Positions 21,885 to 46,382 of a DNA stretch of 64,000 nt are shown here, piece by piece (positions within the stretch are counted from its first letter, which is position 1; each line of letters begins with the position of its first letter). The notes under the pieces were generated by a model, which was given only the letters and a program-made list of their open reading frames with translations, did not search any database and was not told the DNA's origin. The DNA is taken from NCBI GenBank assembly GCA_016211105.1, contig JACQSX010000016.1, positions 1 through 64,000 of the forward strand, read 5' to 3'. The position numbers were made by a program, and so were the translations under genes. This DNA comes from Acidobacteriota bacterium (GTDB lineage Bacteria; Acidobacteriota; UBA6911; JACQSX01).

Positions 21885-22463
21885 TCAGTGCATATAAAAG
21901 AAACAGCTACTCAGGGGCGTCTTCTCGGGGAAAATCATAATAACCCCATCCATGCCTCGTGCTTGAATTGCCCTTCCCTCCACCGAACGGACCGTCTGCT
22001 TCAAGTTTTTCAACTTGACCACCTGGTAGACCTCCGCCTCTTTGGACACTTCGAATGCGAGCTTGAGTAACTCTCCTTGGGGAATTCCCTTGGCAGCGGA
22101 AATGTCAACCCGCAGGAGATTTTGTTCGGCTTGATTCCGTGGATTTTCCACTCTCGCTTTAACTTCACCTGATGTTGTCGTCGCGCTTTGGATCGCCTTC
22201 TTAAATGAGATTAGTTTTCCCGGAAAAGATATTTCAAGGAGAACTTCCGCCATTGGAGAGTGATCGGTCGTAGAGAGCGTAACCGCTAATAATGCATGTT
22301 CCCCGGGCGCCGCGCTGCCACTCCCAAGGTTTACGCTCGCCGCAGGTGATTCCTGAGCAGACGCAAACGGATTCGCGAGCAAAACGAACGAGGCACGGAC
22401 GATCCATCGGATAAGACCTACCGCTTCCTTTTGCGCGCGATCAGAAAAGAAATAGCTCCTCAC
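21885..22463 (-). CDS. Secreted cohesin-like protein ending in CFFYMH (copy 1)
   Basis: This protein has a signal peptide (RWIVRASFVLLANPFASAQE) and one cohesin-like beta-sandwich of about 140 residues (VNLGSGSAAPGEHALLAVTL, then ISFPGKLISFKKAI, LLRVDIS, LLKLAFEV). It ends KTPLSSCFFYMH-stop. The GTG at 22463 is preferred because GGAGAAGAG lies upstream; an earlier in-frame GTG at 22481 has no ribosome-binding site. Cohesin domains are binding modules, and none of the paralogues carries a dockerin or visible enzymatic motif. The invariant hexapeptide tail is shared with copies at 24686, 43337 and 45780. It is co-transcribed with the CoA ligase genes, with a 3-base gap. Function unknown. Confidence 0.8.
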   Translation of the reverse strand: MRSYFFSDRAQKEAVGLIRWIVRASFVLLANPFASAQESPAASVNLGSGSAAPGEHALLAVTLSTTDHSPMAEVLLEISFPGKLISFKKAIQSATTTSGEVKARVENPRNQAEQNLLRVDISAAKGIPQGELLKLAFEVSKEAEVYQVVKLKNLKQTVRSVEGRAIQARGMDGVIMIFPEKTPLSSCFFYMH

Positions 22464-22571
22464 GTTGGATCTCTTCTCCACTCGTTATTTTCGATAAAGC
22501 AATTCAGACAGATACGAACCAACTTGAATAAATCTATCAAAATTCAATGTTGAATGTAAATAGTGAGAAAT

Positions 22572-22700
22572 CATAAATTTTATGTTGACAACCTGTCCGC
22601 ACGAGAGATATACCGACGCCATACTGTGGGACGGGAGACCCACGCAGTGTTTTTATCCATAGGCGCACTTGTGATTTTTAGTCCCGTTTTAGTTGTCCCC
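22572..22700 (+). promoter_or_regulatory. Conserved promoter plus structured leader, copy A
   Basis: This ~129-bp block recurs at 28705-28831 with long identical stretches. It starts CATAAATTTTATGTTGACAA, giving -35 TTGACA (22585-22590), a 17-base spacer and -10 ATATAC (22608-22613). The transcribed part has a hairpin GTGGG (22626-22630)/CCCAC (22639-22643) with an 8-base loop ACGGGAGA. A downstream GTCCC (22695-22699) could pair instead with GGGAC (22628-22632), so two exclusive structures are possible. It drives the amidohydrolase at 22786. The remaining ~110 bp to 22463 serves the divergent leftward gene. I match it to no riboswitch class I know. Confidence 0.65.
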
Positions 22701-22785
22701 GAGACGTGTGGTAGTCGAAGAAGACACACAAGAAAAGGAACTTTGGTTTTGTCGAATATGAGTCGAATATGAAAGGAAGGACAAA

Positions 22786-24684
22786 ATGAGAAGCAGGAAA
22801 ACAGTGGAATGGATTGTGCGAGCAATTTCGTTGGTTGCTTTTCTGGAAGTCGGATATGGGCAGAGCGCCGCCGAATTGCAGAAGAAACTCGATATGCTGA
22901 ACGGTTATCCGGACATGGTCGTGTTCAATGGCAAGATAGCGACCATGGATCCGAAGTTGACCAACGTCCAGGCGATGGCCATTAAGAATCAGAGGATCTT
23001 GGCGGTTGGGACCAATGCGGATATGAAATTTTTAGCCGGTCCCAAGACCGAGATGGTTGATGTAAAAGGCAGAACGGTTTTACCAGGTCTCATCGAAGTC
23101 CACGACCATGCCCACACTTTTGCCGAGTTGCATCAGTTGACCGACGGCTCTTTGGTTAAGAAATTTGGTCCTGAAGCAGAGATGACATTTGCCAGGAGCG
23201 CCACCGTAGATGGGATGGTCAAGGCGGTGGAGGCGGAGGTCAAGAGGCGGGCCGATGAGTTGGGTCCTGGCAAGTGGGTCATCGTGGCGATGTGGTCAGA
23301 GAAGGGCACGCCTTCGGAAAGTCTTTACTTGACGCGTGAAGTGGCCCGGGCCGTGCTCGGCCGGGGGCTGATCAGCGAAGCTTTGCTGGATAAAGTGGCG
23401 CCGAATAATCCGGTTCTCGTGCGGGCGGCAGGCCAGGTTCCAGTGAGCATTTACAACAGCAAGGCTGCCGCGATTGTAAACGAGAAGATGGGGCCCACCA
23501 CGGTCGATAACAAGGGCCAAACCAAGGCCTCGATCCAGGAATATTTTCTCTTTGATATCCTGCTCAATGGAGATCGCGAGGCGGCGGCCTACGTGCTGAA
23601 GGAGGAGCTTGACAGTTGTTTTGCGCCGTATGGGATCACCAGCCTCAGAACACGTATGGCCTCGCCCGCTGTGATGGAGGCTTTAAGTTGGATGGATCAG
23701 CGGAAAGAACTGGCTGTCCGATGGGCCTGGGTAAACTCGATCGGCTATGATGTAGGCCATACTTCTCAGGACGTAATTGATTACTACAAGACCTTCCCTG
23801 ATATGCGGGGTCATGGCAGCGACTATGTGTGGTACATCGGGTCAGGCACCGAAGGCGATCCATATAAATGCACCCAGGCGGGGAAACCGAGAGATCCGAA
23901 CAAGAGTCCTTCCGAGCTGTATACGGTGCCTTGCGGCGCTGATCCCGAGCATGTCGACTATTCCAGTAACCCAACTTTTCAGAAGATGCAGGGTCTGTTT
24001 GAACACCATACAAGAGTGGATCAGATGCACGGGCTGACCGACGGCGCCTACGACTCGGTATTCTTCATGATCGAGAAAGCCATCCGCGAAGGGAAAATCA
24101 CCGAGCAGCAGGTCAGGGACATGAGGATCGGTTTGGAGCATGATGCCGAAACCAGGCCGGATCAATTGGCCAAACTGGCAAAGTATAACATTTACCTGGC
24201 GCTGCAGCCGTTTCACTATTTTCGCGACACGTTAGCGTTTGTGCGAGATTATGGCGAGCAGTTCATGACTTGGGGACAGCCTGTAAAGAGTTTTGTCGAT
24301 TCCGGGGTAAAGTTCACTATCAATACCGCCTATCATCTGACTGCGGGCAAGCCGGAACAGATCGGCCAGCCGGCCCCCGACAGCTTCCGGAACAACAGTA
24401 TTTGGCCTCATCTGGCCTTCTATGTCACTCGCGAGGTTGACGGAAAGAAATATTTAGCGGAACAGGCGATTGATCGGGTGCAGGTGATGAAGGCCATTAC
24501 AAACACGCCGTCCGAGCTCATACTCCGAGAAAAAGAACTGGGTTCCTTAGAGGTGGGGAAGCTGGCTGATTTCATCGTTATTGACAAGGACTATTTTACG
24601 ATTCCCGCGAACGAGATTGAGAAGATCACCACGCTAATGACGGTAATAGGCGGAAAGACAAGCTATCGCAGCCCGAAGTTCTAA
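22786..24684 (+). CDS. Secreted YtcJ-type amidohydrolase (island copy 1)
   Basis: This 632-residue amidohydrolase (amidohydrolase_3/YtcJ branch) has a signal peptide (AISLVAFLEVGYGQ). The first barrel metal motif is HDHAH in GLIEVHDHAHTFAELHQLTD. Other family segments are MVVFNGKIATMDPK, a conserved NTAYHLTAGKPEQIGQPAP block, and the terminal LGSLEVGKLADFIVIDKDYF. Family members hydrolyse C-N bonds of formamides, cyclic amides or N-acyl compounds outside the cytoplasm. It is nearly identical in many blocks to the proteins at 32287 and 41104, but lacks their ~10-16-residue insertion after the MWS motif. It has an ideal upstream promoter and leader, and a CFFYMH gene begins 1 base after its stop. 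Confidence 0.88.
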   Translation: MRSRKTVEWIVRAISLVAFLEVGYGQSAAELQKKLDMLNGYPDMVVFNGKIATMDPKLTNVQAMAIKNQRILAVGTNADMKFLAGPKTEMVDVKGRTVLPGLIEVHDHAHTFAELHQLTDGSLVKKFGPEAEMTFARSATVDGMVKAVEAEVKRRADELGPGKWVIVAMWSEKGTPSESLYLTREVARAVLGRGLISEALLDKVAPNNPVLVRAAGQVPVSIYNSKAAAIVNEKMGPTTVDNKGQTKASIQEYFLFDILLNGDREAAAYVLKEELDSCFAPYGITSLRTRMASPAVMEALSWMDQRKELAVRWAWVNSIGYDVGHTSQDVIDYYKTFPDMRGHGSDYVWYIGSGTEGDPYKCTQAGKPRDPNKSPSELYTVPCGADPEHVDYSSNPTFQKMQGLFEHHTRVDQMHGLTDGAYDSVFFMIEKAIREGKITEQQVRDMRIGLEHDAETRPDQLAKLAKYNIYLALQPFHYFRDTLAFVRDYGEQFMTWGQPVKSFVDSGVKFTINTAYHLTAGKPEQIGQPAPDSFRNNSIWPHLAFYVTREVDGKKYLAEQAIDRVQVMKAITNTPSELILREKELGSLEVGKLADFIVIDKDYFTIPANEIEKITTLMTVIGGKTSYRSPKF

Positions 24685-24685
24685 G

Positions 24686-25345
24686 ATGAGACCGGCATGC
24701 CGGTGGGCGAGGTTTTGCGGCGGATTTGGAATAGCTGAAGATGATACTTGCACCGGCGCCTGGGCTTCCCGCGTGAAAGGATGCCGGGTGCCCCACGCTC
24801 CGGTCTTACTCATGGTGTTGGCGATTTTACACTGTGGTGCGAACGCCCAGAGTGGGACTCTGCGTGTAGAGTTGGGGTCCGGCATATTAACCTTCAGCAC
24901 GACTAATAATGCGCCCAGCGAAAGCCCAGTTTTGGTTCCTCTGTCACTTGTGGCGGAAGGCGGGGAGGGGGCGGAAGGTGAGACAGAGGTCATGAAGCTT
25001 CAGACGGAGATCGTTTTTCCCAACAAGTACCTCTCCTTTTCTAGATTGCTCGTCAAGTCGGAGGACGTAAAGTTCGAGACCACCTTGAGGGAGGACCCAG
25101 ACGACGTTGAGAAATCCCGAGTGCTGGTTTTGATTTCAGCGGGAAAATCCGGTCGGCCGATCCAGCCTGGGATCATTGCCGAAGTGGAGTTTAAGGCCTC
25201 AGCGTTCGTGCCGGAGGGCGTCATCGAGCTACCGCATTACCCTGAAGTGTATTCTCCGGCGGGCCGTTTGGATAACGTCAAGGCGGAATCCGGATTCATC
25301 ACAGTCACGACACCACTATCGGCCTGCTTCTTTTATATGCATTAG
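24686..25345 (+). CDS. Secreted cohesin-like protein ending in CFFYMH (copy 2)
   Basis: The protein is up to 219 residues from ATG at 24686. A GTG at 24773 gives a more normal start before the signal sequence APVLLMVLAILHCGANAQS. The body is a cohesin-like sandwich (LRVELGSGILTFS, LQTEIVFPNKYLSFSRLLVK, VLVLISAGKSGRPIQPGIIA, EVEFKASAFVPEGVIELPH) ending ITVTTPLSACFFYMH-stop. It is close to copy 3 (43337) in sequence, and both follow an amidohydrolase gene, so the pair amidohydrolase-CFFYMH was duplicated as a unit. Function unknown; a periplasmic or surface binding protein with a processed tail is a guess. Confidence 0.8.
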   Translation: MRPACRWARFCGGFGIAEDDTCTGAWASRVKGCRVPHAPVLLMVLAILHCGANAQSGTLRVELGSGILTFSTTNNAPSESPVLVPLSLVAEGGEGAEGETEVMKLQTEIVFPNKYLSFSRLLVKSEDVKFETTLREDPDDVEKSRVLVLISAGKSGRPIQPGIIAEVEFKASAFVPEGVIELPHYPEVYSPAGRLDNVKAESGFITVTTPLSACFFYMH

Positions 25346-28939: not shown

Positions 28940-31900
28940 ATGTCTAAAGTAGGAGCCTACTCGATTGGAATCGTAGTCGTGGTCGCTTGTCTTTGGGCGG
29001 CAACTTTGGGGCAGGGGACGAGCGTGAGCATTCTTGGAACCGTCTACGATCAGTCCCAAGCAATTCTTCCTGGTGTCTTGGTAACCGCGACCGATAAGAA
29101 CACCGGACAGAAACGGACGGCTATTACCGACGATCAGGGGCGCTACATCATGGCGCAAATGAAAGTAGGTAACTATGTCGTCCAGGCAGAGCTACCCGGT
29201 TTTCAAACGGCGACGCGGGAAACCACACTGACGCTGGAAGGAGACGGTGTGATTAATTTTACGCTCACCGTGGGAGCGGCGGCAACCGAGGTGACTGTTA
29301 CTTCGGAAGCTCCTTTGGTGGAGACAACCACGAGTTCCGTCAGGAGTTTGGTAGACCACCAGCAGATACGGGATTTGCCCCTCAATGGGCGGAGCTTCAC
29401 GGATCTGGCCACTCTGCAGACCGGAGTGCTCGTAAATTACTGGGGCATGACTGCCCAGACTCAGACCGGCGCCGAGGGAATCAAGATTTCCATTGCTGGA
29501 ACCCGCGTTACCAGGAGTTCCTTCCTGTTGGATGGGACCGATATTCGCAACCTGCGCGGTGGGAGTCCCGGATCTGTCGCCGGGGTCCAGTTGGGAGTAG
29601 ACACGGTTCAGGAGTTCAGCGTCATCACCAGTGTAGCCAGTGCTGAGTATGGAAATTTTGCAGGCGGGGTAGTTAACGCCGTTACTAAATCGGGAACCAA
29701 TGGTTTTCACGGAAGCCTTTTTGAATTTCATCGTAACAGCGCGTTGGATGCGCGAAACTTTTTCGACCGGGACGTGGCAAATCCACTCACCAGAAGCAAT
29801 CCTCCGCCGTTTAAACGCAATCAGTATGGATTCACTCTGGGAGGACCGATCAAGAAAGACAAGCTGTTTTTCTTTGCCAGCCTGGAACGGCTCCACGACC
29901 GGCTGACAACCACCCGGACCAGCGTTGTTCCCAGCCTGGACGCGCGCCGGGGGTTCATTCCTAACCAGGGTCAGTTCACCGTAAGCCCGATTACCAAGCC
30001 GATCTTGGACACCTACCCACTTCCCAATGGGCCCGCTCGGCCAGATGGTACTGCGGATCGTATTTCTCCGGCGCGCTATACCAGTGACGAGACCTATTTC
30101 GTCAGCAAAGTAGATTGGCAGTTGAGTGAGAAGGATATGTTCGCCGCTCGGTATCTCATCGATATTGGCGACAAGTTTTCGCCCTCGCCGACGACCCTGG
30201 ATGTTGTCTATTCGGATGCGTTCAGCCGAGCCCATTTTATCGTGCTGGAGTGGAAGAGATTGTTCTCTGCCAAGCTTATCAATGAAGCTCGCGTGTCCAT
30301 GAATCGGACGTACAACGGCAATGAGGCCGTGGAACAGACTCCCTTGCCGCCAGCGATGCATTTTAATCCCTTCATGTTCCGGCCCACGGGCAGGCCGAGT
30401 TTTGGTCAGCTCAGTGTCCCGTCGATAGACACGCTGGGGTTCTTCGATAGCCAACTGCAAACCTATGTGCAGAACCGGTTCCAGTATATTGACAACTTGA
30501 GCTACGCCAGTGGCGCGCATTCTTTCAAAGTGGGCTTCAACATTCATCGAATCCAGCTCAACGTGTACAGCCCGCTGTCCATGGGAGGGACTTACAGTTT
30601 CGTGAGTCTGAAGGATTTGATCACCGGAGCCACTCCCAGAAGATACAGCGGGGGTGTCACAGGTTACATGCCCCGCGGTATGCGGCAGGTCCTCATGGGA
30701 TTTTACGCCCAGGACGACTGGAGAATTCGCCCTAACTTCACCCTCAACGCAGGGGTGCGCTACGAGCCGATTACCCTCCCAGTGGAGGTTGCAGGAAGGT
30801 TGAGTAACTTGAGCTTTCCCAGCGACAGCGCCGTGACCCTTGGAAATCCCTGGGTTAAAGTCAATACATCGCTGCGGAACTTTGCGCCGCGACTGGGAAT
30901 GGCGTGGGATTTGTTCGGGGACGGAAAGACGTCGATTCGCGCGGGCTATGGGGTGTTCTATGAGCTATTCGCTCCCCTTTTCTACTTTAATGCGGTAAAT
31001 GGAAATACGCCGTTTGAACTCTTAATTACCCGAGATCGCCCTCCGTTCCCGAATCCGGTGGCAGATCTGGGCGGGGATTTCAGCCGGTTCCCTGTCTCTG
31101 TGAGAACTATGTCCGATGAAATAAAACAGGGAGGCGTTCACCAGTTCAACCTCTCCCTTCAACACGAGCTCCTTTCAGGGCTCGTAGGAGAGCTTACCTA
31201 TACGGGATCGCGCGGGTACAATCTGGTACGCAAGGTGGAGCGAAACGCGGCCATTGCGCAAAGAGACGGGGAAGGACGTTACCCTTTCTTTCCCGCCAAT
31301 GCTGTCCGGCGTAACCCTTCCTTTCAAGGGATCAGTGACCTGATGTGGGACGGAGATTCTCTCTATAATGCTCTTGGCATGACGGTGCGAAAGCGCTTCA
31401 GCCAGGGTTACAGTTTTCAATTGTCTTATACCTTTGGCAAGTTCATCGATGATGCGACGACGCATGTGGGCGGGGAAGACTATGGCGCCTCAGGACAAAA
31501 TGCCCTCTTTCCGGACGACCCGCATTTTAATCGCTCCTTGTCGACTCTGAATATCCGCAACCGCCTTTCAGTCAATGGATCTTGGATTCTTCCGTTCGGA
31601 TCCGGGCAAGCCGTTGGTAGCAACTGGAGCGGCATTACCGAGAAAGTTCTGGGGGGGTGGACACTGAACGGTATTCTCACTGCATCGGACGGGACCTGGA
31701 TGACTGTGGTGATTCCATCCCTGGATTGGAGCCGGAGCCGCGAACGTGGGACCGAGCGGCCCAGCCTGATTCCTGGGGGAAACCAGAATCCGGTGCTGTC
31801 CGGCGGCCGCGACCCCAACAAGTATTTTGATACCACTCAGTTTGTGCTCGGTCCGCAAGGTTACTATGGAACCTTGGGGCGCAACACACTCAATAGGCCT

Positions 31901-32131
31901 GGAGTGCTTACGGTCGATTTTTCCATCCAGAAGAACTTTAATTTTACTGAAGAAAAATACTTCCAGATCAAGGCGGAGATGTTCAACGTTGCCAATCGCG
32001 CCAATTTCGATTCGCCGAATACTCAGGTCATCCTGGATGAAGCGGGCCGGCGCGATTTGACCGCAGGACGGATCACGGCGACGGTTACGACATCGCGGCA
32101 GATCCAGTTTGCCGCGAAGTTTTATTTCTAA
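28940..32131 (+). CDS. Oar-type TonB-dependent outer-membrane receptor (1)
   Basis: This 1,063-residue protein has a signal peptide (IGIVVVVACLWAATLGQG). A carboxypeptidase-regulatory-like beta-sandwich (~28-110: SILGTVYDQSQAILPGVLVT) precedes a plug domain (LVDHQQIRDLPLNGRSFTDL, then FLLDGTDIRN and GVVNAVTKSGTNGFHGSLFE). A large barrel ends TTSRQIQFAAKFYF. This is the Oar/Cna-B receptor type that is massively expanded in Acidobacteriota. It would import a large ligand in a TonB/ExbBD-dependent way; no TonB-ExbBD genes lie in the window. The ATG follows AAGGGGAGGGGACGTGT. It diverges more from the other two receptors than they do from each other. Confidence 0.92.
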   Translation: MSKVGAYSIGIVVVVACLWAATLGQGTSVSILGTVYDQSQAILPGVLVTATDKNTGQKRTAITDDQGRYIMAQMKVGNYVVQAELPGFQTATRETTLTLEGDGVINFTLTVGAAATEVTVTSEAPLVETTTSSVRSLVDHQQIRDLPLNGRSFTDLATLQTGVLVNYWGMTAQTQTGAEGIKISIAGTRVTRSSFLLDGTDIRNLRGGSPGSVAGVQLGVDTVQEFSVITSVASAEYGNFAGGVVNAVTKSGTNGFHGSLFEFHRNSALDARNFFDRDVANPLTRSNPPPFKRNQYGFTLGGPIKKDKLFFFASLERLHDRLTTTRTSVVPSLDARRGFIPNQGQFTVSPITKPILDTYPLPNGPARPDGTADRISPARYTSDETYFVSKVDWQLSEKDMFAARYLIDIGDKFSPSPTTLDVVYSDAFSRAHFIVLEWKRLFSAKLINEARVSMNRTYNGNEAVEQTPLPPAMHFNPFMFRPTGRPSFGQLSVPSIDTLGFFDSQLQTYVQNRFQYIDNLSYASGAHSFKVGFNIHRIQLNVYSPLSMGGTYSFVSLKDLITGATPRRYSGGVTGYMPRGMRQVLMGFYAQDDWRIRPNFTLNAGVRYEPITLPVEVAGRLSNLSFPSDSAVTLGNPWVKVNTSLRNFAPRLGMAWDLFGDGKTSIRAGYGVFYELFAPLFYFNAVNGNTPFELLITRDRPPFPNPVADLGGDFSRFPVSVRTMSDEIKQGGVHQFNLSLQHELLSGLVGELTYTGSRGYNLVRKVERNAAIAQRDGEGRYPFFPANAVRRNPSFQGISDLMWDGDSLYNALGMTVRKRFSQGYSFQLSYTFGKFIDDATTHVGGEDYGASGQNALFPDDPHFNRSLSTLNIRNRLSVNGSWILPFGSGQAVGSNWSGITEKVLGGWTLNGILTASDGTWMTVVIPSLDWSRSRERGTERPSLIPGGNQNPVLSGGRDPNKYFDTTQFVLGPQGYYGTLGRNTLNRPGVLTVDFSIQKNFNFTEEKYFQIKAEMFNVANRANFDSPNTQVILDEAGRRDLTAGRITATVTTSRQIQFAAKFYF

Positions 32132-32286
32132 GGAAATCGTGTTTGGCTTACGGAGGATTCATGACGTGAGACTAGTGACACTAGGTTATGGGAAGTGCTG
32201 GCAGGATTGGATTTTCGAGGGGCTGTTATACGGAGAAGACAGCGGACCGCAGGATTGAATTAATCGAAAGGAAAGAGATAGGAATC

Positions 32287-37300: not shown

Positions 37301-37497
37301 TATCGAACATTTCGGAGGAGTTTAACATCCAGTTCCGGGCGGAGTTTTTCAACATTTTGAATCGCGCAAACTTCGCTTATCCTGAAAGAACGGTTTTCCC
37401 CACCGCCAATGGCATCCCGAATCCGATTGCCGGCCGTATCACGGACACCAGCACTTCATCTCGGCAGATTCAGTTTGCGCTGAAACTTCTCTGGTAA
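34321..37497 (+). CDS. Oar-type TonB-dependent outer-membrane receptor (2)
   Basis: This 1,058-residue receptor has a signal peptide (FFSLFVLCLMCVGFPGS). The regulatory-like sandwich begins VTTGTIQGTVKDEQGAIIPG, the plug begins IAQVVDDKKIRDLPLNVRSY with LLDGADINNVYNKAP, and the barrel ends SSRQIQFALKLLW. It is very similar over its whole length to the next receptor, 319 bases downstream, so the two are a recent tandem duplication. A deviation from the usual LPLNGRS plug motif (LPLNVRS here) is visible. It lies 109 bases after an amidohydrolase gene, with ribosome-binding site TGGAGGCA. Confidence 0.92.
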   Translation: MMQGKARFFSLFVLCLMCVGFPGSQRLTFAQVTTGTIQGTVKDEQGAIIPGVEITIRNLDTGVARTLVSDDQGRYLASDLGLGNFEVRAELAGFQAAVRRGITLTIGQVAAVDLALQVGEVTEEVVVMGEAPLVETTQSSIAQVVDDKKIRDLPLNVRSYAELATLQVGVTKFKIFSGPMNGIGVQLSFAGSRPDSNAYLLDGADINNVYNKAPNSGTGGIIGVEAVREFQVLTNTYSAQFGRSMGGQLVAVTRSGTNAFHGSAYEFYRNDNLDARNFFDDEKPEFKRNQFGFSLGGPIIKDKTFFFGNYEGFREALGVTTISTVPDERARQGILPGRSPFEVHPAVKPYLANLDLFPLPNGRNFNNGLAEYIFDQTQPTSEDMFMARVDHNFSDADSFFVRHSFNDGERLVPAARANFGREETGVRNYFTTLEEKHIFSPQTLNIFRFSFNRQLYTLIDPDQVKIPRELWFNDLAKPPQQPMGTISITGGGGVSSGIWYPRFFALNLFEFSNDLSYVTGGHSLKFGGLAKRIQYNFRSALYLKGEYQFNSIEDFLRGRPARTFRSQRPDADGYRGMRMSLFGFYIQDDYKMRPNLTWNLGLRYEFITVPTEVNGKVANLHNILDPEPTVGDPFFENPSLRSFAPRIGFAWDPFADGKTSIRGGYGIYFNQILYNVWNHASYSQPPFFLTGFINNARFPDAFKDILAGGTLRTAETVEGKFGPTYLQQWNLSVERQLLSQTAVQLGYVGARGVHLGRLTDNLAYPARTSDGRWFIPVENQNKRRNPGFAEIRQRKMDANSFYNALVAGFRKRYSQGFDMQVSYTLSKSIDDASTLIGGAEVSGGQSQWTTLIENPAFDRGFSLFHTAHNFVFNTTWELPFGPGRPFGSNLSGLSAKLLGGWAMSNIVSLASGSPVTIEIGFNNPRDGRNGGQAIRPDLVHGRSNNPVLGGPDRYFDVSSFTLPPVGFYGNLAKGTLIGPGDATWDVSLVKNTRLSNISEEFNIQFRAEFFNILNRANFAYPERTVFPTANGIPNPIAGRITDTSTSSRQIQFALKLLW

Positions 37498-37815
37498 GAG
37501 GCTGAATCGGCTGATCAGTGCCTTTTCTTGGCGTCGGACATCACGCGGTGGTCAGGTCCAAGCCCCGCAGGGGCCCCGAGAGTTGTAGCCCGGGGCAAGC
37601 GGAGCGCAGCCCTGGGTTCTGGAATGTATTCAAATGTGCCGGCAGCCCGCCTCAGGCGGGCGACAAAGTGCGAATTGAGCGGTTATGGAAGGGGAAATAT
37701 CTCTCGCCCCTGCCGGGGCTGCTGTTTCTTTATAGATGTCCCGGTACCCCGGACTGCGGGTCGCTTATCCGGGGCTAACAATTGTGGCGTCCCGCCGGGA
37801 CGCAGGTATGAAGCA
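37498..37815. repeat. Cluster of GC-rich palindromes between duplicated receptor genes
   Basis: This 318-bp gap holds an array of short perfect or near-perfect palindromes: CCCCGCAGGGG near 37563, CCCGCCTCAGGCGGG near 37647, CGCCCCTGCCGGGGC near 37708, CCCCGGACTGCGGG near 37747 and GCGTCCCGCCGGGACGC at 37787-37803. Their spacing and wording (AGTTGTAGCCCGGGGC-type blocks) resemble a dispersed repeat family I have seen in Acidobacteriota and similar genomes; that recollection is not a search. The frame upstream of the receptor reads through it, but the composition shows it is not coding. Confidence 0.6.
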
Positions 37816-40800
37816 ATGGAACACAAGGTAAAGGTTTTGTCATTTCTGTGTATATTTTCTTTGGTGTTCACCGTCTCACCTAACACGTTGTTTCTAACTT
37901 TCGCCCAAGTGACAACGGGGACTGTCCAGGGAACCGTAAAGGACAGCCAGGGGGCCGTTATTCCCGGAGTTGAGGTCACTATTCGGAACTTGGAAACCGG
38001 TGTCCCCAGGACCACGATCACGGATGACCAGGGTCGATATTTGGCGACAAACTTGGATTTGGGAACGTATGAGGTGCGTGGGGCATTGGCTGGATTTCAA
38101 ACCGCAGTGCGAAGGGGTATCACGCTTACGATTGGGCTGGTGGCGGTTGTGGATCTGGTGCTTCAAATTGGGGAGGTGACTGAAGAGGTCGTTGTCACCG
38201 GGGAGGCGCCATTGGTCGAAACTACCCAGTCATCCATCGCGGAAGTGGTGGACGAGCGGAAGATTCGAGAGCTGCCTCTCAATGGGCGAAGCTTTTCGGA
38301 ACTTGCCCTCCTGCAAGTTGGTGTGACAAAGGTTAGAAGCAGGGGGGACATCGCGATGAGAACGGGCGTTGGTGACCAGCTATCCTTTGCTGGTTCCCGT
38401 CCTGATGCAAACACTTACTCGTTAGATGGGGCGGACATCAATAACCCGTATAACAAGGCCCCTAACAGTGGAAGTGGCGGAATTCTTGGCGTAGAGGCGG
38501 TACGAGAGTTTCAAGTTCTCACCAACACCTATTCTGCTCAATATGGTCGCAGCATGGGTGGACAACTGATCGCAGTGACGCGTTCGGGAACCAACGAATT
38601 CCACGGCTCCGTCTACGAGTTTCACCGCAACGACAACCTGGATGCGGCCAACTTTTTTGATCGTTTCGACGCCGCCTCAGGAGAAAAACAGAAGCCTGAG
38701 TTCAAACGCAATCAGTTTGGGTTCGCCCTGGGGGGGCCCATTGTCAAGGACAAGACCTTCTTTTTTGGCAATTATGAGGGATTTCGGGAAAGGCTGGGGT
38801 TAACCACCATCAGCGCGGTTCCCGATGAAAATGCAAGAAGAGGGATTCTTCCAGGACGCCAACCTATCAATGTGCACCCGGCGACCCAGGCATACCTGGC
38901 AAACTATGACCTTTACCCTTTGCCCAACGGACAAAATCTCGGTGATGGCCGCGCCGACTATATTTTCAGACAGACCCAGCCGGTTGATGAAGACGGTTTC
39001 ATGGTACGAGTGGATCATAACTTTGCGCAAAGCGACGCTCTGTTCGTGCGCCAGGCGTTTAATGATGGTGAGAGGCTGTCTCCGGCGAGTAGAGCCAACT
39101 TTGGACGTGAGCGTGTCACGGTAGGCAACCGCTTCACAACCTTGGAGGAACGGCATATCTTTTCCCCCAAGACCCTGAACACTCTTAGGTTTTCATTCAA
39201 TCGCAGCCTGTACTTTTTAATCGATCCCGAGCTTGTCAAGATTCCATCCCAGCTTTGGTTGACGTCTGGCGTCAATCTCGCAGTTCCCGGCCAACAGCCG
39301 ATGGGGGGAATCTTCAGCGTGAGCTCCGGTACCTTCTTCCCGAGGTTCTTCACTGTGAATCTGTTTCAGTGGTCCGATGACGTTGCCTACGTACTGGGGG
39401 ATCATTCCTTGAAGTTTGGGGCGTTGGCGGAGCGCATCCAGTACAACATGCTTGGCGGACAGCGCTTCAAGGGCGACTATGGATTCGACACCCTTGAGGA
39501 CTTTTTAATCGGCAGACCGCGCAACTTTCGAATTACGGTGCCCGGCTCGGATGGAAATCGAGGCATGCGGCTGAACCTGTTCGGTTTCTACATTCAAGAT
39601 GATTATCAGATGCGCCCTGGCCTCACGTGGAACCTCGGCCTGCGCTACGAATTTATTACTGTGCCTACGGAAGTGAATGGGAAAGTGGCTAATTTGCACA
39701 GTCACCTGGATCCCCAGGTGACTGTGGGTGATCCTTTTTTCGAAAATCCGTCGCTGAAAAACTTCGCCCCACGCATTGGCTTTGCCTGGGATCCATTTGG
39801 CGGTGGTCGGACGTCAGTCCGCGGAGGATACGGCATTTACTACAACCAGATTCTCTATAATTACTGGAACCAGGCTGCACATCTCCAGCCGCCGTTTGTG
39901 CGCATCGCGACGATTGTCAGGCCGCGGTTTCCCGATGCCTTTAGGGATATCGTAGGAGGTAGCGGCGCTGGGGCCCTGCAATCCGTGGAGACCCTGCAGG
40001 GGAAATTTGGTCAAACCTATCTGCAGCAATGGAACTTGAGCATTCAGAGAGAGCTCTTCCCACAGGCCGCCCTATCCGTTGGGTACGTGGCAACTCGAGG
40101 GGCTCATTTGCCGCGGATCATTGATAATGTCGCCTATTCCGCTGTGCGATCGGATGGCCGAGTTTTTATTCCGGTGGAAAATAGAGGGAAGCGACGCAAT
40201 CCAAACTTTGGAGAAATCAGACAGAGAACTATGGATGCGAACTCCTTCTATCACGGTCTTGTCATCGATTTTAAGAAAAGATATCAGCATGGCTTCAACC
40301 TACAACTTTCCTACACCTTTTCGAAGGCTATCGATGATGCTTCTATCAACATAGGCGCGTCTGAGGCGACTACCGAGACCCACTGGACCAGCCTTCCGGA
40401 GGATCCGTCCTTTGACCGGGGCTTATCTCTCTTTCACACGTCCCATGACTTTACGTTGAACGGTAGTTGGGAGCTTCCCTTTGGCCCTGGTAAGCCGTTT
40501 GCTGGTGGAGCAGGCAGTTTTGTCGGAAAGTGTGTAGGGGGATGGAGCATAAGTAGTATCGTGACGTTCGCCACCGGCAGTCCGTTGACACCCACGGTGG
40601 GCATCGACACGTTGAACAATGGTAGCGTCGGAGGAGGCCCGAATAGGGCGGACTTGGTAGTGGGAAGAGACGCGAATCCTGTTCTAGGCGGACCGGATCG
40701 ATATTTTGACCCCACGGCGTTTGCCTTACCTGAAACGGGAGTGTTCGGGAATTTGGGTCGGAACACAATTATTGGGCCGGGCTTTGCCGGCTGGGACCTG

Positions 40801-41007
40801 TCGTTAGTTAAGAGCACTCCAGTATCAGAAAGATCGAGTGTTCAGTTTCGGGCCGAGTTCTTCAATGTCTTTAATCGCGCCAACTTCGGCACGCCTTCGA
40901 GGGCGCTCTTTAGAGAGGGAGGCGCTCGAGTCGGGAGTGCGGGCCGCATCACGTCCACGGATGGCACCTCCAGACAGATTCAGCTTGCGCTCAAGTTCAT
41001 CTGGTGA
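37816..41007 (+). CDS. Oar-type TonB-dependent outer-membrane receptor (3)
   Basis: This 1,063-residue receptor starts at ATG 37816 (MEHKVKVLSFLCIFSLVFTV), directly before the signal peptide. The open frame extends 96 codons further upstream but only through repeat DNA. The sandwich begins VTTGTVQGTVKDSQGAVIPG, the plug contains IAEVVDERKIRELPLNGRSF and YSLDGADINNPYNKAP, and the barrel ends TSRQIQLALKFIW. It is a near duplicate of receptor 2. Duplicated receptors can tune affinity for related ligands. It is followed after 96 bases by amidohydrolase copy 3. Confidence 0.92.
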   Translation: MEHKVKVLSFLCIFSLVFTVSPNTLFLTFAQVTTGTVQGTVKDSQGAVIPGVEVTIRNLETGVPRTTITDDQGRYLATNLDLGTYEVRGALAGFQTAVRRGITLTIGLVAVVDLVLQIGEVTEEVVVTGEAPLVETTQSSIAEVVDERKIRELPLNGRSFSELALLQVGVTKVRSRGDIAMRTGVGDQLSFAGSRPDANTYSLDGADINNPYNKAPNSGSGGILGVEAVREFQVLTNTYSAQYGRSMGGQLIAVTRSGTNEFHGSVYEFHRNDNLDAANFFDRFDAASGEKQKPEFKRNQFGFALGGPIVKDKTFFFGNYEGFRERLGLTTISAVPDENARRGILPGRQPINVHPATQAYLANYDLYPLPNGQNLGDGRADYIFRQTQPVDEDGFMVRVDHNFAQSDALFVRQAFNDGERLSPASRANFGRERVTVGNRFTTLEERHIFSPKTLNTLRFSFNRSLYFLIDPELVKIPSQLWLTSGVNLAVPGQQPMGGIFSVSSGTFFPRFFTVNLFQWSDDVAYVLGDHSLKFGALAERIQYNMLGGQRFKGDYGFDTLEDFLIGRPRNFRITVPGSDGNRGMRLNLFGFYIQDDYQMRPGLTWNLGLRYEFITVPTEVNGKVANLHSHLDPQVTVGDPFFENPSLKNFAPRIGFAWDPFGGGRTSVRGGYGIYYNQILYNYWNQAAHLQPPFVRIATIVRPRFPDAFRDIVGGSGAGALQSVETLQGKFGQTYLQQWNLSIQRELFPQAALSVGYVATRGAHLPRIIDNVAYSAVRSDGRVFIPVENRGKRRNPNFGEIRQRTMDANSFYHGLVIDFKKRYQHGFNLQLSYTFSKAIDDASINIGASEATTETHWTSLPEDPSFDRGLSLFHTSHDFTLNGSWELPFGPGKPFAGGAGSFVGKCVGGWSISSIVTFATGSPLTPTVGIDTLNNGSVGGGPNRADLVVGRDANPVLGGPDRYFDPTAFALPETGVFGNLGRNTIIGPGFAGWDLSLVKSTPVSERSSVQFRAEFFNVFNRANFGTPSRALFREGGARVGSAGRITSTDGTSRQIQLALKFIW

Positions 41008-41103: not shown

Positions 41104-43080
41104 ATGAGAGACCGTAAGGTTCAGAAAACGCATCTTCTAATGGGAAAGATCTGCAAGATGGGGAGTTTATCTCTGCTAGGGATTCTCCTTTTACTAAGCT
41201 TCCTGCCGATAGGGCATGGCCAAGATTTGGCCTCGCTGCAGAAGAAGCTTGATATGCTCAATGCTTATCCAGACCTGATCGTATTCAACGGCAAGATTGC
41301 TACGATGGATCCATCGATGACAACGGTTCAGGCGATGGCAATCAGGAATCGCAGGCTTGTGGCGCTGGGGACCAATGACGACGTCAAATTTCTCGCCGGT
41401 CCCAAGACCGAGATGCTGGATGTAAAGGGCAGAACGGTCTTACCAGGTCTGATCGAAGTCCACGACCACGCCCATACGTTTGCCGAGCTGCATCGGTTGA
41501 CCGACGGCTCTCTGGTTGCCAAGTACGGTCCCGAAGCGCAGATGACCTTTGCCAGAAGCGCGACCGTTGACGGAATGGTCAAGGCGGTGGAAGCGGAGGT
41601 GAAGAAAAGAGCCAATGAGTTGGGTCCGGGCAAGTGGGTGATCGTGGCCATGTGGTCAGGAAGGGATTCTTCACAGCCGCGCGATGTGACGGGGCCGGCA
41701 ACTTGGGCATCGCCTGCGAGTCTGGATCTTTACGAAACGCGTGCCATAGCCAGGGCTGTGATTGGGAGAGGATTGATCAGCTTGGCCTCACTGGATAAGG
41801 TGGCACCCGATAATCCGGTCCTGGTGCGAGCGGCGGGTCAGGTTCCGGTGAGCATTTACAATAGCCGGGCTGTCCAGATTGTAAGAGAAAGGATGGGGCC
41901 CCACGGTGCAACAGATGATGGCAAAAGTGGTGGAGGCGTACAGGAATATTTTCTCTTTGACATCTTGCTCAAGGGGAAAACCGAGGCAGTGGCGGATGTC
42001 CTGAAAATGGAGATGGAAAATTGTCTTGCGCCCTATGGCATCACCTCTCTGAGAACCCGCATGGCATCACCGGCTGTCATGAAGGCCGCAAATTGGCTGG
42101 ATCACCGCAATGACTTAGCGGTACGGTGGGCCTGGATCAACTCGATCGGTTTCAGTTTCGCTGAGAATGTAGTGGATTTCTACAAGCTATTCCCAGACTT
42201 CAGAGGCCACGGCTCCGAATACTTGTGGTACATAGCATCCAGCAGCGAAGGGGATCCATTCCGATGCACGCAGGCGGGGAAACCTAGAGACCCAAACCGT
42301 AACCCGGCGGATTTATATACCGAACCCTGTAACGCCGATCCGGAGCATGTTGACTATGCCACATCCGAACAATGGAAGCGGCTACAAGGTTTAATAGAAC
42401 GCGGGATAAGAGTGGATCAAATGCATGGGCAGACCGATGGCGCGTACGATTCAATGTTTTTCATGATCGAAAAAGCCATCCGCGAAGGGAAGATTACCGA
42501 GCAGGAGATCAGGGACATGCGGATCGGTCTGGAGCACAATGCCATTACGCGGCCGGATCAGAAGGCCAAACTGGAAAAGTATAATATTTATCTAACATTG
42601 CAACCGTTCCATTATTTCCGCGATACCCTGCAGTTTGTGCGCGATTATGGCGAGCAGTACCTGACCTGGGGACAGGCCGCCAAGGATTTCACCGATACGA
42701 AGGTGAAATTCACCATTAATACTGCCTACCATTTGACCAAGGGAAAACCAGAACAGATTGGCCAGCCTGCACCGGCCAGTTTCCAGAACAACAGCATCTG
42801 GCCGCACTTGGATTTCTACGTCACTCGCGAGGTTGATGGAAAGACTTACTTGCCAGAGCAGGCCATTGATCGCGTTCAGGTGATTAGTGCCATCACGAGA
42901 ACGCCCTCCGAGCTTATGCTGCGGGAAAATGAACTGGGTTCCTTAGAGGTGGGGAAGCTGGCGGATTTCATCGTCATCGACAAGGACTATTTCTCAATCC
43001 CTGCCAATCAGATTCGCACGATTACTACATTGCTGACAGTAGTGGGAGGCAAGGTTACTTATCGTAATGCGAGATTTTGA
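41104..43080 (+). CDS. Secreted YtcJ-type amidohydrolase (island copy 3)
   Basis: This 658-residue protein has a near-ideal start (TTAGGAGGCAATC-ATG) and a signal peptide (LLGILLLLSFLPIGHGQD). The catalytic layout matches copies 1 and 2: NGKIATMDPSMTTVQAMAIR, GLIEVHDHAHTFAELHRLTD, NTAYHLTKGKPEQIGQPAP and LGSLEVGKLADFIVIDKDYF. It carries the longest insertion after MWS (DSSQPRDVTGPATWASPASL). Like copy 1 it is followed by a CFFYMH gene. The three paralogues share so many identical blocks that they must act on similar substrates. The specific amide is not predictable. Confidence 0.88.
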   Translation: MRDRKVQKTHLLMGKICKMGSLSLLGILLLLSFLPIGHGQDLASLQKKLDMLNAYPDLIVFNGKIATMDPSMTTVQAMAIRNRRLVALGTNDDVKFLAGPKTEMLDVKGRTVLPGLIEVHDHAHTFAELHRLTDGSLVAKYGPEAQMTFARSATVDGMVKAVEAEVKKRANELGPGKWVIVAMWSGRDSSQPRDVTGPATWASPASLDLYETRAIARAVIGRGLISLASLDKVAPDNPVLVRAAGQVPVSIYNSRAVQIVRERMGPHGATDDGKSGGGVQEYFLFDILLKGKTEAVADVLKMEMENCLAPYGITSLRTRMASPAVMKAANWLDHRNDLAVRWAWINSIGFSFAENVVDFYKLFPDFRGHGSEYLWYIASSSEGDPFRCTQAGKPRDPNRNPADLYTEPCNADPEHVDYATSEQWKRLQGLIERGIRVDQMHGQTDGAYDSMFFMIEKAIREGKITEQEIRDMRIGLEHNAITRPDQKAKLEKYNIYLTLQPFHYFRDTLQFVRDYGEQYLTWGQAAKDFTDTKVKFTINTAYHLTKGKPEQIGQPAPASFQNNSIWPHLDFYVTREVDGKTYLPEQAIDRVQVISAITRTPSELMLRENELGSLEVGKLADFIVIDKDYFSIPANQIRTITTLLTVVGGKVTYRNARF

Positions 43081-43216
43081 TTGTTGATAACTCCTAGGCA
43101 GCATGACAGCATGAATGTTTCGTTGCGTGAGAAGGTGTGAAAAAATTCGAGCCTCGACCGCTAGAACATGTGAAAAAATTGCCATAGCATCTCTGCCGCG
43201 CGAGGTTGTCGCGACT

Positions 43217-43245: not shown

Positions 43246-43336
43246 GAACCGATGGCATCGATTTCGAATTTTTTACATGTTCTTAAGGGAGCCGACAAGT
43301 AATTGTGGAATTCGGAGTGCGGAATTGGAGGACCTT

Positions 43337-43921
43337 ATGGTCAAGCCTGTCGGTGAGAAGCCGTCGCGTGGCGCTTTCATGAAGGCGGCAGTCGGACGAG
43401 TCGTTTTCACGATTAGCTTTCTGCTGGCGGCTTCACTATGCGCGGGAAAAGCCGAAGAAGGGCAAGTGCATGTAGACTTGGGCTCCGTCGTTCTGACGGC
43501 TACTACCGACAAGGAAAGTCTGGTCCTACTGCCACTTTCGCTTTTGGCTGGACCCGATGCGGAGATCGTTAAGATTCAGACAGAAATCATATTTCCAAAC
43601 ACGTATCTTTCATTTAGCCGGGGACTCGCCAAGTCTCAGGAAGTGAAAATTGAAGCCACGGTGAGCGAGAATCCGGAGGATCTGGATAAATCCCGCTTGC
43701 TGGTCGTTGTTTTTCCTGCCGGCTCGAGCCAGTCTATCCGGCCGGGCATCTTCGCGGATTTAGAGTTCAAAGTGTCACAATACGTGCCCGATGGCGCTAT
43801 AGAGCTGCCCCATCGGCCTAAGGCCTATTCCGCGTCCCATCTTTTGGCCGAAGTAGAAGGACAACCGGGTCTTATTACGGTAACTACGCCGATCGTAGCC
43901 TGCTTCTTCTACATGCATTAG
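43337..43921 (+). CDS. Secreted cohesin-like protein ending in CFFYMH (copy 3)
   Basis: This 194-residue protein starts at ATG 43337, chosen for GGAGG 8 bases upstream and because it directly precedes the signal peptide (RVVFTISFLLAASLCAGKAE). An upstream in-frame extension to 43115 crosses the palindromic repeat and is rejected. The body is cohesin-like (VHVDLGSVVLTATTDKES, IQTEIIFPNTYLSFSRGLAK, LLVVVFPAGSSQSIRPGIFA, DLEFKVSQYVPDGAIELPH), ending ITVTTPIVACFFYMH-stop. It is closest to copy 2. It lies between amidohydrolase copy 3 and the first M29-like gene. Confidence 0.82.
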   Translation: MVKPVGEKPSRGAFMKAAVGRVVFTISFLLAASLCAGKAEEGQVHVDLGSVVLTATTDKESLVLLPLSLLAGPDAEIVKIQTEIIFPNTYLSFSRGLAKSQEVKIEATVSENPEDLDKSRLLVVVFPAGSSQSIRPGIFADLEFKVSQYVPDGAIELPHRPKAYSASHLLAEVEGQPGLITVTTPIVACFFYMH

Positions 43922-44052
43922 GGCTGGATCAGGGGACTGAAAAGAAAGCGGCCGACTATCATCAGCAGTCCTGCGTGATCGTTTGGGATTTCTCATCGGG
44001 ACGCAAGACCGAACACGCAGTGGGCTGCCCTTAACTGGGGGAGGATGCAAAT

Positions 44053-45717
44053 ATGCGGAAGGCGAGATTTTACGGATATAGCGTCGTTGTTGTGTTGCTT
44101 GGCCTTTTATCTCTTACCGCCATCGACTGGGTGAATGAGGCTTTCTTTAAAGCCAGGTTTTCTTACCCCGCTCCCCGGATTCCGGAGTGGTCCTTGCCGG
44201 GCAGGCAGTACACGCGCGAGGAACTTCTGCCTTATGCTCGGAAACTGGTAGAGCGAACTCACGGCAGATTTGGGATGGGTCCTATCAATCCGGGCGATAA
44301 GATCCTGGTGATTGCGGCCCAATCTCAGGACCCGGTTACGTTTGAGGCCGTAAAGACTGCGATGCGCGAAAAGGGGGCTGCGCAGGTGGATTTGATCACC
44401 TATGACCAACTTCCCAGAATCGGGCGTAACCCTGGGTCAGCAGAACCGAATCCGGACCCCCACGTTCGCAATTTTGGGAGACTGCTTCGGTACGGAAAGG
44501 ATGGTTACCTGGAGTGGGAACGACTAGTACTCAACGAGCCCGGCGCAGCGACGGCCCAGCGCAATATGGGCGCTTGGTTCATGCTCAACTGGGCCAAACA
44601 AGATCCGAATAGATGGCAGCAATACGATAAGATTTACGCGCTGGAGGCTGGCCCGTTTGGCGAGTACATCTGGGGTAAGAAGTTCAGAGGCTATTGGCTC
44701 CTCGAGAAACCGAACGACCTGTTATTCCCGTTCAATCACTTCCCCTCCGACTTGTATTCTCTGGTCGATGATAAGGTCACGAGTTTAAAACAGGGAGGTG
44801 TCGCCGAGGTGAGACACACGGATCCAGAAGGAACCGATCTTAGAGCGGTAATGAATGAGGAGCAATCGCGGCTTTTTGCAAAATTTGGAAACCAGACGCC
44901 GGGACATCTCCAAGTCATGCCGCGGGGTTACAATGCTGAGAAGTTCGAAGGTGTGATTGCCGGGACATCGAACCACTGGGGCTTCTTTCCCTATATGAAG
45001 CTCTATGTCAAGGATGGAGTGGTCACCAAGGCAGAGGGAGGCGGAGAGTTTGGTAGAAAGTTTAATGAATATATCGAGAGGTACCAGAACGTGCAGTGGC
45101 CCGGTTTTGCAAAACCCGGGTACTTTTGGGTCGGGGAAGACTCCTTAGGGACCAATCCCAAGGGTGCAAGGCCTTACTGGCGGCTGGTCGGTGGAACCGG
45201 TACGGTCTATCCCAATGTAGACGAGAGGAACCGATCGGGTGTGATTCACTTTGGCATCGGCATCGAGTGTAGCGCCTCTGGGGTGGGTGAGGAACAGTGT
45301 ATGCAGTGGGCCGCCGAAAATAGGATGCCGTTTACGCATGCGCCTCACGTGCATATCCAGTTCAGCACGATTCAATACAAGATGCGGGAAACCGGCCAAT
45401 GGGTCACCGTAGTGGATAAAGGGTGGGTGACGGCCAACGATGATCCTGAGGTGCGGGCGCTAGCGGCCAAGTACGGCAGGCCGGAAGAGGTTCTAAGCTA
45501 TGAGTGGATTCCTGTAAAACCGACGATCAACTATCCTGGAAACTGGGAGGACTATGTAAAGGATCCCTGGAAATATGTGGAGATGGAAGCGAACGGCAAG
45601 ATATCCGGGATGCCGAGATTGTCTTGGAGTATCGGTGTCATAGTGATTTTTTGGATTCTCCTTGGAGGGATTTGGTGGCTGATGTACCGGGCATATCGCA
45701 GGTCTTTGAGCTCCTAA
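44053..45717 (+). CDS. Membrane-anchored M29-aminopeptidase-like protein (copy 1)
   Basis: This 554-residue protein has one N-terminal membrane segment (YSVVVVLLGLLSLTAIDWV) and one C-terminal segment (IGVIVIFWILLGGIWWLMY), so the ~480-residue middle is probably periplasmic. The middle resembles the aminopeptidase T (M29)/NicX-like fold. It shows AEVRHTDPEGTDLRAVMNEE, FEGVIAGTSNHWGFFPYMKL, EGGGEFGRKFNEY, VDERNRSGVIHFGIGIE and HAPHVHIQF, with candidate Glu and His ligands and an H-x-H in place of the H-x-D of M29. Whether it is a peptidase or another metalloenzyme is open. It lies 131 bases after CFFYMH copy 3 and has a near duplicate at 46616. Confidence 0.7.
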   Translation: MRKARFYGYSVVVVLLGLLSLTAIDWVNEAFFKARFSYPAPRIPEWSLPGRQYTREELLPYARKLVERTHGRFGMGPINPGDKILVIAAQSQDPVTFEAVKTAMREKGAAQVDLITYDQLPRIGRNPGSAEPNPDPHVRNFGRLLRYGKDGYLEWERLVLNEPGAATAQRNMGAWFMLNWAKQDPNRWQQYDKIYALEAGPFGEYIWGKKFRGYWLLEKPNDLLFPFNHFPSDLYSLVDDKVTSLKQGGVAEVRHTDPEGTDLRAVMNEEQSRLFAKFGNQTPGHLQVMPRGYNAEKFEGVIAGTSNHWGFFPYMKLYVKDGVVTKAEGGGEFGRKFNEYIERYQNVQWPGFAKPGYFWVGEDSLGTNPKGARPYWRLVGGTGTVYPNVDERNRSGVIHFGIGIECSASGVGEEQCMQWAAENRMPFTHAPHVHIQFSTIQYKMRETGQWVTVVDKGWVTANDDPEVRALAAKYGRPEEVLSYEWIPVKPTINYPGNWEDYVKDPWKYVEMEANGKISGMPRLSWSIGVIVIFWILLGGIWWLMYRAYRRSLSS

Positions 45718-45779
45718 TTGGAAAGAGAGCGTGATCACGAAGCGCCCACTCCACGACTTTTTGTACTACCTGATCCTTC

Positions 45780-46382
45780 ATGCTGCTGGAAGAAGACAAG
45801 TTGTCTAAACTCACGTCCTTCCGATTGACTATACTCGCAGTGGCAGTACTTGTATCGGATCCGCTTTTTACGGCAACAGCCCGCGCTCAACGAGACTTGG
45901 TGGGGCCGCGCTTGGATTTAAGTTTTGCCGCGCAAACTCCGGGAAGCGAAGTTTCTTTGGTTCTTTACTTAAGTGTTCCCCCCGATGTCAAAATTGGGAC
46001 CGCCATAAGCAAGATCACATTTCCTAATCGTGTGCTTTCATTTCAAAGAGTAGTGAAGGGTCTATCATCTGAGCTGGTGAATGCAGAAGTAACAGCCGTT
46101 GTGAACGTGGATAGTGATAACTTACAGAATTCAGTAGTGACAGTGGCCGTGTCCAGCAGAGAGCGGAAGGCCATTCCCGGAGGTGCGGTGGCCGATCTTA
46201 GATTCAAAATCTATGAGCGCACCCAGACGGGTCAGACCATAAGGTTGAAGAATGTAATTACCGCGCTGACCACCGACGATCCTCCCAAACCAGTAAAGCC
46301 GATCATGGGTGAAAATGGGGAGATCCGAGTCACCGCGACTGTGCCGAGTCCAGTGTTCTCCTGTTTCTTTTACATGCACTAA
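45780..46382 (+). CDS. Secreted cohesin-like protein ending in CFFYMH (copy 4)
   Basis: This 200-residue protein has a signal segment (LTILAVAVLVSDPLFTATARA). The cohesin-like body (LDLSFAAQTPGSEVSLVLYL, ISKITFPNRVLSFQRVVKGL, VVTVAVSSRERKAIPGGAVA, DLRFKIYERTQTGQTIRLKN) ends VTATVPSPVFSCFFYMH-stop. The body is closer to copy 1 than to copies 2 and 3, yet the last six residues are identical in all four. It is placed 62 bases after M29-like copy 1 and 233 bases before M29-like copy 2, so CFFYMH and M29-like genes alternate. Confidence 0.8.
   Translation: MLLEEDKLSKLTSFRLTILAVAVLVSDPLFTATARAQRDLVGPRLDLSFAAQTPGSEVSLVLYLSVPPDVKIGTAISKITFPNRVLSFQRVVKGLSSELVNAEVTAVVNVDSDNLQNSVVTVAVSSRERKAIPGGAVADLRFKIYERTQTGQTIRLKNVITALTTDDPPKPVKPIMGENGEIRVTATVPSPVFSCFFYMH

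Follow-up and report, generated by a model that had tools for sequence, protein, structure and literature searches.

Why should four secreted proteins, encoded within a single stretch of bacterial DNA, finish on exactly the same six residues, Cys-Phe-Phe-Tyr-Met-His (CFFYMH)? The stretch, hereafter the window, is the whole of the DNA analysed, 64,000 nucleotides of an Acidobacteriota bacterium (UBA6911; JACQSX01; assembly GCA_016211105.1, contig JACQSX010000016.1, positions 1 to 64,000), whose genome (G000; 3.5 Mb, 52 contigs) is referred to below as the own genome. Translation of the four open reading frames (ORFs) agrees with a first-pass annotation in that each of them ends in CFFYMH followed by a stop codon: tag gene 1 lies at 21885-22463 on the minus strand (tail and stop at 21885-21905), while tag genes 2, 3, and 4 occupy 24686-25345, 43337-43921, and 45780-46382 on the plus strand (tail and stop at 25325-25345, 43901-43921, and 46362-46382, respectively), the frame of gene 3 being open from 43115 and its start at 43337 being a choice. 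As had also been annotated, synonymous codons distinguish the tails; four of the six residues are affected (Cys, the second Phe, Tyr, and His), and the stops are TGA, TAG, TAG, and TAA. The CFFYMH tag on cohesin-like proteins is strongly conserved, limited to one clade of Acidobacteriota and undescribed in the literature we searched: in open-licence papers, nothing was found on the tag itself, nor anything on cohesin together with Acidobacteria, amidohydrolase or PEP-CTERM that describes such a tag. About a dozen exported proteins with one fold and nearly the same six C-terminal residues look like the bearers of an address or attachment tag for a common partner. We favour, tentatively and with a probability of roughly 0.4, the reading that the tag, borne by clade-specific, exported single-cohesin proteins, serves as a signal for anchoring in the envelope or for processing, with the cysteine at its centre.

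The strength of the association between tag and family can be judged from searches run in both directions. The back-translated tail plus stop occurs at 13 places on seven contigs of the own genome, each time at the end of an open frame like those in the window, and the reversed-pattern control occurs nowhere; the motif thus stands above chance frequency at C-termini. Nine of these copies are outside the window, on six other contigs, and the tag is thus not confined to the island of which the first-pass annotation speaks. An alignment of 58 tag proteins has a mean column identity of 19%, and its only invariant columns are those of the tail, as the selection of rows guarantees. Since the rows of this alignment had been chosen by their tail, a tail-less alignment of the bodies of 55 of the 58 proteins (L064, L072, and L106 left out; mean column identity 18%) was used as search model. 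In the own genome, this body model finds 13 members, and they are the same 13 tag genes; in the nine tag genomes it finds 94 rows, 85 of which end in C-[FLY]-[FLYM]-[YFG]-[MLI]-H. The remaining nine rows, not counted as tagged, comprise three that cross a contig end (L146, L185, L198), two from one protein of 610 residues (L163), two short or stop-containing stretches (L165 and G330:C250, the DNA of the latter not having been read), and two complete but untagged proteins (L147, an ORF of 506 residues, and L162). Among the C-termini read after the body-only search, none carries a tag with its Cys or His replaced. In the reverse direction, 81 of the 87 places where a relaxed tag pattern occurs in the nine tag genomes adjoin a member of the body model. 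The six exceptions comprise three that end in TGG, which is no stop codon, one interrupted at a contig end, one that closes a broken cohesin-like remnant, and one in a cohesin-like member from genome G123 (L292) that is too diverged for the body model yet still tagged, with the tail CFFFIH. Together, the 85 rows and the 81 places mean that tag and family are paired nearly one to one.

The description of the bodies as diverged cohesin-like domains has held up. Pfam Cohesin (PF00963) matches 38 of the 58 members at E ≤ 0.1 (best 3.1e-13); within the window only the protein of 45780-46382 matches, at 23.3 bits against a cut-off of 24.1, and the other three give no match at E ≤ 1. A PDB sequence profile search returns cohesin chains as best matches (4uyp, 3.8e-10). 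The AlphaFold model of the 45780-46382 protein reaches a predicted local distance difference test score (pLDDT) of 89, with 95-98 in the body and 74 over the last 10 residues, and a fold search with this one modelled protein gives 50 listed PDB matches which are all cohesins or cohesin-containing chains (best 6kgc, 4.8e-11; template modelling (TM) score by target up to 0.80). The predicted fold is therefore a cohesin-type beta-sandwich, to judge from one modelled member and the profile matches. The proteins also appear to be exported, as annotated: by a crude hydropathy test, run with no signal-peptide program, a signal-peptide-like hydrophobic stretch is found ahead of the body in 70 of the 80 testable proteins versus inside the body in 14 of 80. 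Some tag modules are fused behind TPR-like repeats, which were read by eye (L150, L154, L155, L164). Dockerin (PF00404), searched for as a partner, was rejected, as it does not occur in the expected pattern across the tag genomes: there is no match in G000 and six further tag genomes and one each in G001 and G123, and dockerin-bearing partners of the cellulosome type thus seem to be absent from G000. Dockerin matches were seen a few kilobases from cohesin-like ones at G274:C225, G063:C204, G009:C138, G149:C1, G001:C16, and G038:C44, which suggests small non-cellulosomal cohesin-dockerin pairs without the tag.

For the anatomy of the tag, the pattern given above was used to choose 86 distinct proteins, of which 85 belong to the nine tag genomes and the last to an additional assembly. 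As the pattern required both Cys and His, neither varies among the 86. Positions 2 to 5 are Phe in 77, Phe in 82, Tyr in 83, and Met in 77 proteins, the Met being replaced by Leu or Ile in the other nine, and few, mostly conservative changes are tolerated at these middle four positions. The residue before the Cys is small (Ala, Ser or Gly) in 79 of the 86, Cys-2 is Phe in 44, and Cys-3 is Ile, Val or Leu in 68, a context that looks like a lipobox, [IVL]-F-[ASG]-C, as far as sequence can tell. There is no second Cys within the preceding ~150 residues in 77 of the 86. Between body and tail, the 58-protein alignment has a linker of variable length, and the tag sits exactly at the C-terminus. The first-pass annotation had considered the tail unlike PEP-CTERM, LPXTG, and type IX sorting signals, and this view is sustained: none of the 86 proteins has a basic residue (Lys or Arg) in its last six, a helix-like stretch (19-residue hydropathy of at least 1.6 within the last 40 residues) occurs in only four, and an NCBIfam scan of the 58 members gives ten families at E ≤ 0.1, each with a single member. 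For LPXTG and type IX signals, we know of no resemblance. An exosortase (PF09721) was rejected as a reader of the tag, with matches in 0 of the nine tag genomes, some of them incomplete, versus 9 of 14 other genomes of the class searched (9 of 12 minus the genus g17).

How far does the tag extend beyond this genome? In a sample of 396 genomes from the phylum, its exact form was found in 8, all in the class of the own genome (reversed control, 1 match); its relaxed form was found in nine of 38 genomes of that class, at 6-13 places each, and in none of the other 29 (reversed control, 1 match in the 38 genomes). Nine further genomes of the class have weaker cohesin-like matches; 15 such ORFs were read, and they encode larger proteins without the tag at their end (three cross the end of the fetched stretch). 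The first-pass annotation had raised the prospect of relatives that lack the tail regardless of their gene neighbourhood: relatives without it do exist in the class, but the absence tracks the clade and two enzyme families, considered below. Neither the tag nor these enzyme families nor the CPBP subfamily discussed further on was matched in two genomes of genus g17 (72% and 65% complete), which share a family with some of the tag genomes. In a species-genome collection, 49 of 74 tail matches come from Acidobacteria records (eight assemblies), and the 25 outside Acidobacteria were treated as chance, 21 being open frames of 6-73 codons and four lacking a true stop codon; the same holds for four viral-contig matches, whose frames span 8 or 14 codons and in two cases lack a closing stop. 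Chance, or recent copying of DNA, might be entertained on the strength of the few copies in the window and finds no support elsewhere. With all 13 members tagged and no hit for the control, 66 distinct tail 21-mers among the 86 proteins, and no relaxed match in 29 class relatives, we give it practically no credence and agree with the first-pass annotation that selection acts on the peptide.

A further clue is the manner in which the tag varies. Exact tags account for 13 of 13 in G000, 6 of 6 in G001, 9 of 11 in G123 (its CFFFIH protein, found later, not included), 4 of 8 in G132, 9 of 10 in G141, 10 of 11 in G212, 7 of 8 in G226, 0 of 6 in G306, and 6 of 12 in G330. This share of variants is uneven among genomes to a degree that none of 20,000 shuffles reached. 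All six readable tails of G306 are variant (four CLFYMH and two CFFFMH), and they are scattered in the tree, most of them beside CFFYMH relatives; four tails of G132 are CFFYLH, and five of the six variants of G330 are changed at position 5. On this quick tree, in which 33 of 83 inner branches are weakly supported, exact and variant tails interchange 18 times. Variants from the same genome share the changed position in 24 pairs versus 14.1 expected (p 0.005, or p 0.0035 minus two orthologs), paralogs not being fully independent in these statistics. The four CLFYMH tails of G306 are written in four different 21-mers and are therefore not recent copies, and the difference in codons argues against gene conversion. 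Such concerted variation within genomes is most simply explained by a single component in each genome, which would read the tag in trans and drift together with its targets; mutation bias or relaxed selection in some genomes may also produce the pattern.

What, then, might the tagged proteins work with? In the window, tag genes 1 and 2 are adjoined by the gene for an exported Amidohydro_3-type amidohydrolase (22786-24684, plus strand), tag gene 2 starting one base past its end, and a second such gene (41104-43080, plus strand) lies directly upstream of tag gene 3; a third is at 32188-34212 (plus strand). Between tag genes 3 and 4 is the gene of an exported or membrane protein (44053-45717, plus strand) without Pfam match, which we assign tentatively to an M29-aminopeptidase/NicX-like family, and a second member of this family follows tag gene 4 (46544-48307, plus strand). 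The assignment leans on a model of mean pLDDT 69, the fold matches of which are PepS, AmpS, AmpT, and 2,5-dihydroxypyridine dioxygenase, with E down to 3e-11 and TM scores by query of only 0.29-0.35; no PDB sequence match of note was found. Three Oar-like TonB-dependent receptors complete the cluster (28940-32131, 34321-37497, and 37528-41007, all plus strand). ORF picking kept 66 tag genes across the window and the extended loci, and 37 of them lie directly beside an amidohydrolase gene; the corresponding counts are 0 of 112 for the ORFs of nine control loci and 30 of 249 for ORFs three or more genes off in the tag loci. M29-like proteins are direct neighbours of seven tag genes and TonB receptors of five. 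Of the 38 genomes of the class, only the nine tag genomes were found to contain the two enzyme families. Each has 4-24 amidohydrolases at E ≤ 1e-40, from no more than 33 scored candidates per genome, and 2-23 M29-like proteins at E ≤ 1e-10. A first look at the tag genomes had yielded up to 77 loose Amidohydro_3-type candidates, an expansion alongside the M29/NicX-like proteins. MoxR and VWA genes stand beside tag proteins at three loci in two genomes that represent two families of the clade (L066/L275, L164/L113, L155/L266). Two of these MoxR/VWA-linked tag proteins are fused behind TPR-like repeats, and one of the loci also has DUF58 and DUF4381, which at L256 again lie a few genes away from a tag gene. 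As to the surroundings of the cluster, a succinyl-CoA-ligase-like pair (19882-21881, minus strand) follows tag gene 1 immediately and in the same orientation, perhaps as part of one transcript, and the region upstream of the cluster (2526-18121) holds efflux-type genes (OEP, two HlyD-like, and AcrB-like) along with two more OEP proteins (633 and 641 residues).

From these observations, the anchoring or processing signal proposed at the outset can be pictured as follows. The tag protein, exported by the Sec system, would fold, and an enzyme would recognise [IVL]-F-[ASG]-C-F-F-Y-M-H at the free carboxyl end and modify the Cys, probably with a lipid, the FFYMH being possibly cut off; the cohesin-like domain would be left displayed on the membrane or the cell surface, where it could bind partners in a dockerin-free manner, most often the adjacent amidohydrolase or M29-like enzyme. 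That chemistry at the Cys (modification, anchoring) is involved we infer from the lipobox-like context, from a Cys that usually has no other nearby, and from the parallel with anchored single cohesins. A fuller version we regard as unlikely in its entirety: the tag would represent a new class of C-terminal targeting signal, six residues long and free of a helix, through which an undescribed enzyme of this clade attaches a dozen cohesin-like proteins covalently to the envelope; without dockerins, these would serve as docking sites for a large set of exported amidohydrolases and M29-like enzymes, the whole resembling a cellulosome that degrades amides or peptides. Several points weigh against the anchoring signal. 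A plain lipobox leaves the conservation of FFYMH after the Cys unexplained, the tag does not appear to follow the design of sortase, exosortase or myxosortase substrates (motif, transmembrane helix, basic cluster), and it was seen only on the cohesin-like proteins, whereas general sorting signals are shared by many families. No modifying enzyme or reader of the tag was found. A CPBP/Rce1-like protease, profiled as one subfamily (motif EE[IV]QRAF; in G123 as two pieces on different contigs), is present in nine of nine tag genomes and was rejected as a dedicated reader because 22 of the 29 untagged class relatives have a clear ortholog as well (206-300 bits); it could have been co-opted. The co-distribution of the two enzyme families with the tag could reflect the shared ancestry of one clade, and when the sequence divergence of tag proteins is compared with that of the amidohydrolases beside them in a mirror test (an amidohydrolase of at least 350 residues lies within 400 bp of 32 of the 60 tag genes), the signal is weak, with rho 0.157 within genomes (p 0.03) and p 0.08 for same-strand pairs. 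A CPBP-like membrane domain was also noticed in the own genome some 35 kb past the window (G000:C4:99217-99549, minus strand; L201), where it ends a protein of 592 residues.

Processing or modification, docking, and metal binding are the three roles that the first-pass annotation had proposed. The main rival dispenses with modification altogether and makes the tail a non-covalent docking peptide, the free hexapeptide entering a hydrophobic pocket with a carboxylate site on a common envelope protein (PDZ-like, VWA, TPR or outer-membrane). Such docking would account for the free C-terminal carboxylate and the strongly conserved side chains after the Cys, for the conservative drift concerted by genome that co-evolution of peptide and receptor gives, and for the tag proteins beside MoxR and VWA genes; we nevertheless consider it somewhat unlikely, since no common receptor was found and neither the mostly small residue before the Cys nor the constancy of the Cys itself is obviously needed. 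A tail that binds metal or haem through Cys and His (and the carboxylate), or whose Cys forms a disulphide with a partner enzyme, is decidedly less probable. It would suit the lack of any replaced Cys or His among the tag ends read, the lack of another nearby Cys in 77 of the 86 proteins, and the fact that several neighbours (amidohydrolases, M29-like, and metallo-beta-lactamase-like proteins) come from families of metalloenzymes, but Met gives way to Leu or Ile in nine of the 86 and is therefore not a required ligand. The disulphide with a partner enzyme was rejected: only two columns of 41 amidohydrolases are at least 30% Cys (21 of 41 each), possibly forming a disulphide of their own, and there is none in 11 M29-like proteins.

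Two other explanations look to the protein itself or to the fate of its end. Were the tail the closing strand of the cohesin-like fold and conserved for folding, its restriction to this family would follow; yet the linker to the body varies widely in length, the pLDDT of the last 10 residues falls to 74 from the 95-98 of the body, bodies diverge down to ~18% column identity with the tail nearly unchanged, and variants concerted by genome would not be expected, all of which makes the closing strand very improbable. Slightly more remote still is a hexapeptide released by a cut between the small residue and the Cys, with a signal or metallophore as product and the cohesin proteins as mere carriers. 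The small residue before the Cys, as at signal-peptidase-type sites, and the production of one peptide from 13 unlike carriers speak for release, while the tag loci share no receptor, transporter or maturation gene that could be recognised, and several variants are mixed in some genomes. Weighed together, these alternatives leave anchoring or processing at the Cys as the reading we prefer.

With which known systems may the tag be compared? LPXTG, PEP-CTERM, and MYXO-CTERM signals share a design of helix plus basic cluster, and a conserved six-residue tag with neither would need a different mechanism of recognition and probably an undescribed enzyme or receptor. With PEP-CTERM/exosortase it has in common that a C-terminal signal recurs among the exported proteins of Gram-negative bacteria, but the tag has no PEP motif, helix or basic end, and the nine tag genomes have no exosortase match. 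The CaaX box also places a Cys near the free C-terminus ahead of hydrophobic residues; in the tag, however, five residues rather than three follow the Cys, the last of them is His, and the proteins are exported rather than cytosolic. The consensus of the bacterial lipoprotein lipobox is [LVI][ASTVI][GAS]C, and the tag proteins have [IVL]-x-[ASG]-C around their constant Cys; their version differs in being C-terminal, mostly without a preceding hydrophobic stretch of signal-peptide length, in favouring Phe at Cys-2, and in the conserved FFYMH that follows. Being short, the tag is perhaps portable, and its natural variants predict the residues that its reader would tolerate.

Closer parallels are offered by two published systems. 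MYXO-CTERM is described as a signal with an invariant Cys, a proposed lipidation, a CPBP protease, and dozens of copies per genome (PMC11980579), and the likeness lies in a C-terminal signal with an invariant Cys on exported proteins. It continues, however, into a transmembrane helix and an Arg-rich end, whereas the CFFYMH tag ends the protein in six residues without either, was seen only on cohesin-like proteins, and has no dedicated CPBP enzyme that we could find. ScaE of Ruminococcus flavefaciens is reported to have a single cohesin and to be covalently anchored through LPXTG (PMC5301203). It relies on sortase and on dockerin partners, while the tag proteins lack a C-terminal LPXTG and seven of the nine tag genomes have no dockerin match; both nevertheless combine one cohesin with a C-terminal attachment signal, and ScaE (2zf9) is itself among the fold matches. 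If the anchoring signal is read correctly, the tag would give dockerin-less cohesin-like proteins a function, and the whole might represent a Gram-negative counterpart of single-cohesin anchoring scaffoldins.

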